Made by a program: the position numbers and the translations under genes | Assembly (NCBI GenBank): GCA_009746045.1 | Contig: RPFO01000079.1 | Location: 6,654,453 to 6,718,452 of the forward strand | From: Mesostigma viride | Lineage: Eukaryota > Streptophyta > Mesostigmatophyceae > Mesostigmatales > Mesostigmataceae | DNA length: 64,000 nt | Direction: 5' to 3' | Shown here: in pieces, positions 19,621-52,278 of the stretch | Layout of the letters: each line of letters opens with the position of its first letter | Position numbering within the stretch: position 1 is the first letter of the stretch | The notes under the pieces: generated by a model | The model's input: only the letters and a program-made list of their open reading frames with translations | Told to the model about the DNA's origin: nothing | Databases searched by the model: none

Positions 19621-20415
19621 ATGTCCCTTACGCCGCTAAGTGCGAGGTCCGACCTCGCTATGCACTATGTCATCGAGCCGGAGAATCCGGCCTCCATGGT
19701 GCCTCACGAGGGGAAGATAAGGGGTATGCTGAGCTGCTGTGTAATACCGAAAACACACGAGGACGGCCCGCTTGCTGACCAGGATGGAAACAAGGTCGTG
19801 AGAAGACCTCAAAGGCTCATTGGCAGTAATTTAAGCAGGGAATTTAGCGGAGACGCTGTTGCTTCGGGCAGCCCCGGAAATGGAGATTACGAGCAGGGAG
19901 AAAATTCGCACGGTAATAGTGGCAGCGGTGTGCAGAAATCCGGACGAGGCTCCAAAATGGACGACGGGAATAGTCAGGACGCCGCATCTGCGCAGCATGC
20001 CGACGCGGACGCGGCGGTGCACAGGCCTCTCAAACTCCCGGCCCTGCGTACGGACGCCAGCGACGCGGGCCGTCGCATCGCACCCCGAGGCAGCCACCGC
20101 GAGAGCCCTCGCGCGATGGACCGAGAGAATTCCCAGACCCTTGATCGGGGCACGAGTTTCTACGGCCGCCACAGGAGCGGCATACATACGCCCGCCACTC
20201 CAGGAACTCCCCGGACCCCAGGCACTCCCCGGACCCCAGCCACTCCCCGGTCGGAGGCGCCAGGGAGCCCCTTTACCCCTCACGTGGCGAGTCTTGAGAT
20301 TGCGATCAAGGACGAGGTCCTGTACACCAAGCCCGGCTGGACGGCCAAGCTGATCGTGCGCTACCCAGCTACGGTCATGTTTTTGGCGGCGCTTCTCCCA
20401 ATCATCATGACCATT
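19621..20415 (+). CDS. Giant gene exon 1: cytosolic N-terminus and TM1
   Basis: Residues 1-265. About 235 hydrophilic residues include a TP-rich run (TPATPGTPRTPGTPRTPATP), which contains possible proline-directed phosphorylation sites. TM1 (YPATVMFLAALLPIIMTI) ends the exon. The donor is GTGAGT at 20416. The ATG at 19621 is the first in frame and opens a continuous coding sequence. Confidence 0.88.

Positions 20416-52278: not shown

Follow-up and report, generated by a model that had tools for sequence, protein, structure and literature searches.

In mycobacteria, the RND lipid exporter MmpL3 and antigen 85, an acyltransferase with an esterase fold, act in sequence. GDE2 and GDE3 carry a GDPD-type domain on a six-TM scaffold and are not transporters. 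Papers on them describe both as six-TM surface GPI phospholipases (e.g. PMC7033719, PMC5576486). How Dispatched-type RND proteins release lipid-anchored cargo is still treated as an open question in papers on the subject (e.g. PMC8403983, PMC11412720). A review states that Disp uses Na+ influx (PMC8589413), the aspartates of human DISP1 are named D572, D573 and D1051 in another paper (PMC8630017), and a proprotein-convertase cleavage site in loop 1 of hDisp1 has also been described.

The window analysed here is a stretch of 64,000 nucleotides of Mesostigma viride DNA (6654453-6718452 of its contig), for which a first-pass annotation had proposed a single 30-exon frame encoding TM1-7, an EGF-like domain, eight FN3 domains, an esterase-like domain, a PI-PLC X-like domain and TM8-12. 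Codon scores, splice sites and domain matches supported this layout as a gene model, and at that level the predicted Dispatched-like fusion gene is confirmed as real. The curated model runs on the forward strand from an ATG at 19621 to a TGA ending at 52278, with 30 exons, 10,245 nt, 3,414 aa and one stop, which is terminal; its introns measure 218-1,587 nt. A purpose-written gene finder, trained on seed peptides chosen by eye, had given 45 exons on the forward strand, from which 15 exons were removed by hand, and four boundaries were shifted (the starts of exons 1 and 18 and the ends of exons 7 and 30). The removed exons were 1 to 144 nt long and were taken out without an exon-by-exon homology test, so those with a length divisible by three may be real. 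Four of them lay upstream of the ATG, two beyond the stop and nine between (22658-22747, 25264-25284, 28272-28298, 28653-28682, 29527-29541, 37212-37288, 41458-41469, 44924-44956 and 46648-46662). Curation was done with the model of the earlier reader known, so the confirmation was not blind. In a leave-one-exon-out codon score, all 30 exons, which had been preselected as coding, were positive, and the claimed frame was the top of six. The splice donors were GT in 28 of 29 cases and GC once (after exon 5), and all 29 acceptors were AG.

The sequence around the gene held several other features. A stop-free frame of 1,648 codons at 15-4958 (-) matched a tyrosine/serine-threonine kinase (2.6e-18) and a RING finger (9.8e-9), and a kinase N-lobe fragment at 6205-6597 (-), which matched PF00069 under the cut-off (9.5e-5), is perhaps an upstream exon of that kinase. 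At 8588-10102 (+) we found a LINE-type element with endonuclease (1.5e-6) and reverse transcriptase (RVT_1, 1e-12), and at 61563-62228 (+) a second reverse-transcriptase fragment (RVT_1, 5.1e-15), so that LINE-like remains seem to lie on both flanks of the gene. Positions 14001-16000 showed a strong GC skew (0.68) at 67% GC, and a tRNA scan found none.

The RND shell starts in exon 1 (19621-20415, +), which encodes the ATG, a cytoplasmic N-terminus of about 240 residues and the start of TM1 (aa 251-269, hydropathy 2.57). Exons 2-6 (22003-25517, +; singly 22003-22269, 23514-23651, 24464-24544, 24763-24891 with the GC donor, and 25358-25517) complete TM1 and encode extracellular loop 1, on the evidence of the gene model, its splice sites and alignment with two relatives, P0017 and P0018. 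Exons 7-9 (26112-28186, +; singly 26112-26271, 26896-26990 and 28076-28186) carry TM2-4 of the sterol-sensing domain and the loop after them, and exon 10 (29034-29434, +) carries TM5-TM7 and the start of loop 2, placed by the gene model, PDB search and hydropathy. Residues from about 240 to 790 thus comprise TM1, loop 1, the sterol-sensing domain and TM7. The other half of the shell lies in exon 29 (48772-49299, +), with the end of loop 2 and TM8-TM11, and in exon 30 (50074-52278, +), where the gene model, PDB search and hydropathy place TM12, two more hydrophobic segments, a long Ser/Arg-rich tail and the stop codon. By hydropathy, 10 of the 12 expected TM segments reached 1.6, and the other two, TM3 (1.47) and TM5 (1.07), were both aligned to DISP1; a stretch of the PI-PLC domain with a value of 1.86 also exceeded 1.6. 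The segments past TM12 (50224-50376, +) span aa 2731-2749 (1.47) and aa 2763-2781 (2.22); if they are counted, the membrane spans may number 14.

The shell had been called Dispatched-like, and the searches favoured this over Patched or NPC1, since the best PDB relative of both halves was Dispatched. In the N-half, the sterol-sensing domain (PF12349, TM2-6) scored 69.5 bits against a cut-off of 22.3 (3.8e-19) and the Patched model of Pfam also matched (4.9e-14), and the PDB sequence search gave DISP1 (6xe6) at 2.5e-24, PTCH1 at 3.5e-13 and NPC1 at 3.9e-9. For the C-half, the Pfam models Sterol-sensing and MMPL both stayed below the cut-off (MMPL 0.0061), and a PDB query made of exon 29 and the start of exon 30, together with exons 23-24, gave DISP1 at 1.6e-18, PTCH1 at 4e-4 and NPC1 at 0.012. 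No MmpL chain occurred among the 33 PDB matches of the N-half or the 31 of the C-half. The best NCBIfam model for the shell was Patched, far under its cut-off. Residues D608 and D609 in TM4 and D2628 in TM10 align with the conserved aspartates of DISP1, and the codon of D609 is reassembled over the splice between exons 8 and 9.

A search of the 440-Mb genome (2,243 contigs) for a second copy of the N-half of the shell found none, as all 10 matches, from 11 scored candidates, belonged to this locus. Over the N-half, P0017 and P0018 were 35% and 34% identical to the shell (29% and 28% in another comparison), and they share the loop-2 start FPK..N.Q.F...ES.F, after which extra sequence begins at the same site as in the window. 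This extra sequence consists of a Pro-rich stretch and, by eye, a possible EF-hand, and both relatives are truncated; in the part available, we saw no FN3, esterase or PI-PLC domain. From their look alone they would be green algae. The last letters of P0017, at its C-terminus, resemble a translated sequencing adapter, so its truncation may be technical.

Loop 2, between TM7 and TM8, holds both enzyme-like domains, and to this extent the description of a fusion in one extracellular loop stood. They do not form one block; the alignments indicate two separate inserts, insert 1 at about aa 805-2065 and insert 2 at about aa 2199-2504, parted by Dispatched loop-2 sequence. They enter the loop at different sites, because a stretch of Dispatched loop 2 precedes the PI-PLC and TM8 comes after it. 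From exon 10 the loop runs on into exon 11 (30124-30394, +), which holds the loop-2 start VFLEYSESRF and where PDFFPKHHNVQVFLEYSESRF aligned gap-free to P0018 over the junction of exons 10 and 11 (z 9.3 against 200 shuffles). The middle of the loop is the end of exon 23 (43815-43872, +) and exon 24 (44273-44608, +). Here the sequence from NVEILDLLWGITG in exon 23 through exon 24 aligned to residues 679-764 of P0020, an SSD protein of Hermetia illucens, with a score of 66, where the best of 200 shuffles reached 53 (z 7.4); alignment of the same stretch to P0019 and P0021 gave nothing. When the loop-2 pieces were compared with the PDB, the top five of eight matches were Dispatched, at E 0.3-1.2, which is weak alone, and the other three were unrelated (E 1.2-1.5). 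An assignment of exon 24 to the esterase was rejected, since it aligns to Dispatched.

In the gene model, insert 1 consists of an EGF-like domain, eight FN3 domains and an esterase-type domain of family PF00756. EGF and FN3 domains are binding modules. Exon 11 alone scored 25.3 bits with EGF_2 against a cut-off of 22.1, and 21.8, under the cut-off, when placed in a longer piece. The FN3 domains lie in exons 12-19 (30788-39506, +; singly 30788-31396, 31864-32214, 32471-32756, 33696-33769, 34874-35173, 36035-36316, 37693-38030 and 39162-39506) and matched Pfam fn3 in eight stretches (3.7e-72), of which six taken singly were above the cut-off of 25 and two were at 23.0 and 24.9. Exons 12, 13, 14 together with 15, 16 and 17 (30788-36316, +) are phase 1-1 units, as exon shuffling would give.

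The esterase-like domain starts in exon 19, which is where ferulic acid esterase 7xrt and a profile built from eight bacterial relatives begin to align, and continues through exons 20-22 (40246-42912, +; singly 40246-40529, 41159-41288 and 42630-42912), as placed by Pfam, PDB and alignments of relatives. It matched the family PF00756 above the cut-off (59.2 bits against 22, 7.1e-16), and the GxSxG motif claimed for it held, with the nucleophile S1842 (41205-41207) within GISLGG in exon 21. The match covered only profile positions 86-159 of 251, which is the half around the nucleophile, and significant esterase matches stop near aa 1950 in exon 22. The first part of exon 23 (43504-43814, +; aa 1964-2067) belongs to insert 1 without a significant match and is the C-terminal half of the esterase by position only. 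Of the triad, Ser alone could be placed, and the positions of acid and histidine differed between two alignments. With five bacterial relatives, the histidine column holds Asn in the window sequence; with eight, a downstream GGRH histidine fills it, and the HMM aligns the N-half only. The esterase may therefore be inactive, as its catalytic acid and histidine were not placed.

The PDB matches of this domain included feruloyl esterases (1.7e-7), S-formylglutathione hydrolase (4.9e-5) and, weakly, antigen 85-A (0.0028), and the last of these leads to the main functional rival of anchor cutting, a wall-lipid route. The protein would be a lipid exporter and wall assembler. A glycolipid or lipid monomer, once exported or flipped by the RND core, would be processed at the surface by the PI-PLC and by the esterase, which is in the fold family of antigen 85; this would be comparable to the sequential work of MmpL3 and antigen 85, but here in one chain. 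The sub-threshold MMPL match in the C-half of the shell agrees with this, and P0017-P0019 have MMPL matches above the cut-off. However, the transporter is much nearer to Dispatched and has no MmpL chain among its PDB matches, a PI-type anchor is a more fitting target for a PI-PLC than a lipid of the wall, and the catalytic histidine of the esterase was not located, so we regard a wall-lipid route as unlikely, if still a serious contender.

Insert 2 is a PI-PLC of bacterial type, encoded in exons 25-28 (45204-47960, +; singly 45204-45280, 46181-46417, 46774-46994 and 47579-47960) at aa 2210-2472, with a tail of about 32 residues, and was delimited by relatives and a profile. As a single sequence, the domain matched no Pfam family and no NCBIfam model, and its PDB search returned no PI-PLC and only chance matches (levanase, E 0.8). 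A first scan of prokaryote genomes with the sequence alone likewise gave seven pattern matches and no relative. With tblastn, relatives were found on Streptomyces plasmids, the best (5e-19) in an unannotated stretch, followed by annotated PI-PLCs at 4e-13 and 7e-13. When prokaryote genomes were then scanned using an alignment, 263 relatives came up, of which 80 were kept and 79 used (one with a stop was left out). By record title, 62 of the 80 were from Myxococcota/Deltaproteobacteria or Bacteroidota, and a large PI-PLC-like family (L014-L093) was seen in myxobacteria and Bacteroidota. The best relative was from Nannocystis, with 45% identity over residues 1-263 of 266, and its alignment spans the junctions 25/26, 26/27 and 27/28 with no gap there. 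Within the prokaryotic collection searched, the nearest relatives of the domain thus appear to be bacterial. Once the window domain and 17 bacterial sequences were combined in a profile, the PDB gave 25 matches at E<=1, all of them PI-PLCs (best 2.6e-7). The window domain fails Pfam PI-PLC-X, but this model is a poor test of the bacterial branch to which the domain belongs, because only two of eight scanned bacterial relatives pass it (L003 and L041). The AlphaFold model of the Nannocystis relative, with 36 sequences aligned, had a mean pLDDT of 96.5 and alternating strands and helices. Four relatives read whole were frames of 335-380 residues, and the N-termini of the Nannocystis relatives look secretory by eye.

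Residues H2231, N2232, R2262, M2265, D2267 and H2281 were identical in 79 of 79 relatives, H2413 in 78 and E2315 in 74. From the PI-PLC literature, we take H2231 and H2281 to be the catalytic histidines and R2262 the active-site arginine. The call of a PI-PLC X-like domain was thus borne out, with an active site that is intact by sequence. These identities also argue against decay, which bears on a further explanation, that the inserted domains are degenerate or structural and form a huge adhesive loop that binds ligands through its FN3, esterase and PI-PLC folds, leaving the pump to work alone. The binding nature of EGF and FN3 would suit such a loop, and so would the esterase, given its unplaced acid and histidine, its two disagreeing alignments and the Asn in one of them, and the different material that P0017 and P0018 carry at the same insertion site. 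With the PI-PLC residues conserved as they are, we consider a purely adhesive loop improbable.

The remaining alternative is an error of gene model or assembly, in which the PI-PLC, and perhaps other modules, would be a separate gene within or between the RND halves. Several joins lie inside single exons, namely RND-EGF in exon 11, FN3-FN3 in exon 12 and FN3 to the esterase start in exon 19, and the first and last of these speak against such an error. In exon 23, too, some 100 residues of the insert, which only their position assigns to the esterase, are continuous with the Dispatched motif. The use of this exon as proof of an esterase-RND join in one exon was dropped, as significant esterase matches end earlier, and because of this our estimate for the fusion reading moved from even to a shade below even, and that for the gene-model error rose from very improbable to quite improbable. 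The PI-PLC is joined solely via junctions 24-25 and 28-29, both of which keep the frame. As we read the alignments, no homology runs across ten of the loop-2 junctions, namely 11/12, 12/13, 13/14, 15/16, 16/17, 17/18, 18/19, 22/23, 24/25 and 28/29, and the lack of it at 22/23, 24/25 and 28/29 would fit a separate gene. The weak sites around them point the same way, with 37% of the AG sites in the gene scoring as well as acceptor 25, and 15-16% of the GT sites as well as donors 22 and 23; elsewhere, acceptors 9 (25%) and 14 (20%) and donor 15 (13%) were also weak. In addition, inspection by eye showed an unscored GT in phase 0 within exon 24, which could in principle join exon 29 directly. Against a separate gene, the modules share the strand and their phases match, donor 24 ranks in the top 0.2% and donor 28 in the top 1.0% of GT sites in the gene, and no Met precedes the domain in the open frame around exon 25, while the Nannocystis relatives have secretory-looking N-termini. 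Acceptor 29 is among the best 4.7% of AG sites. Exons 25-28 amount to 917 nt, therefore their skipping shifts the frame before TM8-12, which also argues against a model without them; exons 12-22 amount to 3,282 nt and could be skipped as an in-frame cassette.

The curated exons had served as training set for the gene finder, which handles gene ends poorly. Left free to split genes, it made no break from exon 8 to exon 30 and recovered there 23 of 23 curated exons plus seven micro-exons. Its one break fell between exons 7 and 8, inside the sterol-sensing domain, where homology runs on. With a gene penalty, it ran into the neighbours (15704-63646, 73 exons). A reading of the exon 28 tail as RND loop, which would place a PI-PLC/RND join inside an exon, was not supported, as the tail with exon 29 gave no significant alignment to loops of either P0020 (z 0.2) or P0019 (z 1.2). 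In intron 26 (46648-46774, +), beside a CA-type repeat, there is a near-copy of the start of exon 27 (INPREVVVLIY against INLREVVVLIY), a possible decoy splice site.

The layout itself had been called undescribed, and our searches agree as far as they reach. A protein search with residues 1-2790 gave 16 matches, all of them annotated with FN3-type models and covering 7-30% of the query, and is uninformative on the layout. A search for a combined esterase, RND and PI-PLC protein (about 1,540-4,900 aa), which scored only candidates with shared short exact words, found none at E<=1e-3 among 8,000 candidates and thus no relative with the same inserts. Viral contigs searched by alignment gave 69 pattern matches and no relative. 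Among the matches listed in open-licence PMC papers, judged by title and the start of the abstract, no such protein was described.

What can be read from the sequence of the predicted protein is a shell with its TM4 and TM10 aspartates, the order of the modules, their unbroken frame in the gene model, and a PI-PLC whose active site is intact. Extraction and cutting of lipid-anchored proteins, as first proposed, is plausible. We put at close to an even chance that one gene encodes a Dispatched-like RND transporter with two independent loop-2 inserts, which would extract a lipid-anchored substrate while its PI-PLC cuts the anchor. Driven by an ion gradient, the RND core would loosen the substrate from the outer leaflet, with the FN3/EGF stalk holding or selecting the substrate, or the wall; the tethered PI-PLC would cut the PI or GPI anchor, so that the product leaves without lipid; and the esterase would trim acyl chains or, should its triad prove incomplete, serve as a binding module. 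For this machine, we infer the substrate, the direction, the coupling and any activity. It is doubtful that a single polypeptide would go as far as coupling ion-driven extraction to anchor cutting by the PI-PLC, aided by an esterase that acts on acyl groups or holds the substrate, as a complete release machine whose steps animals divide among Dispatched, co-factors and sheddases. Such a natural fusion of pump and anchor cutter would physically tie both activities and would point to PI- or GPI-linked molecules as cargo of Dispatched-like proteins beyond Hedgehog, and point mutations in this compact system could separate extraction from cleavage.

Compared with the known systems, MmpL3 and antigen 85 resemble the locus as an RND lipid exporter working with an esterase-fold enzyme, but are two separate bacterial proteins, with a transporter of another RND branch and no PI-PLC. 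GDE2 and GDE3 would offer an analogy of mechanism only, as multi-pass proteins with an outward-facing domain that cuts anchors. The bacterial-type PI-PLCs, from Nannocystis and other secreted-looking ones to the structures 2plc, 1aod and 1t6m, share the catalytic His pair and the Arg with the window domain, and the identity to Nannocystis noted above, but they are short frames of their own, whereas here the domain sits within a transporter loop. Dispatched (DISP1; 6xe6, 7rph, 7e2h, 6tbu, 7fif) has the same RND shell with a sterol-sensing domain and large loops after TM1 and TM7, the aspartate triad that D608, D609 and D2628 match in hDisp1, and the loop-2 motif WGI...FN...Q found in exons 23-24. 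Unlike Dispatched, the protein predicted here has two hydrophobic segments beyond TM12 and a loop 2 of about 1,800 residues, a single RND loop enlarged by two insertions at different places.
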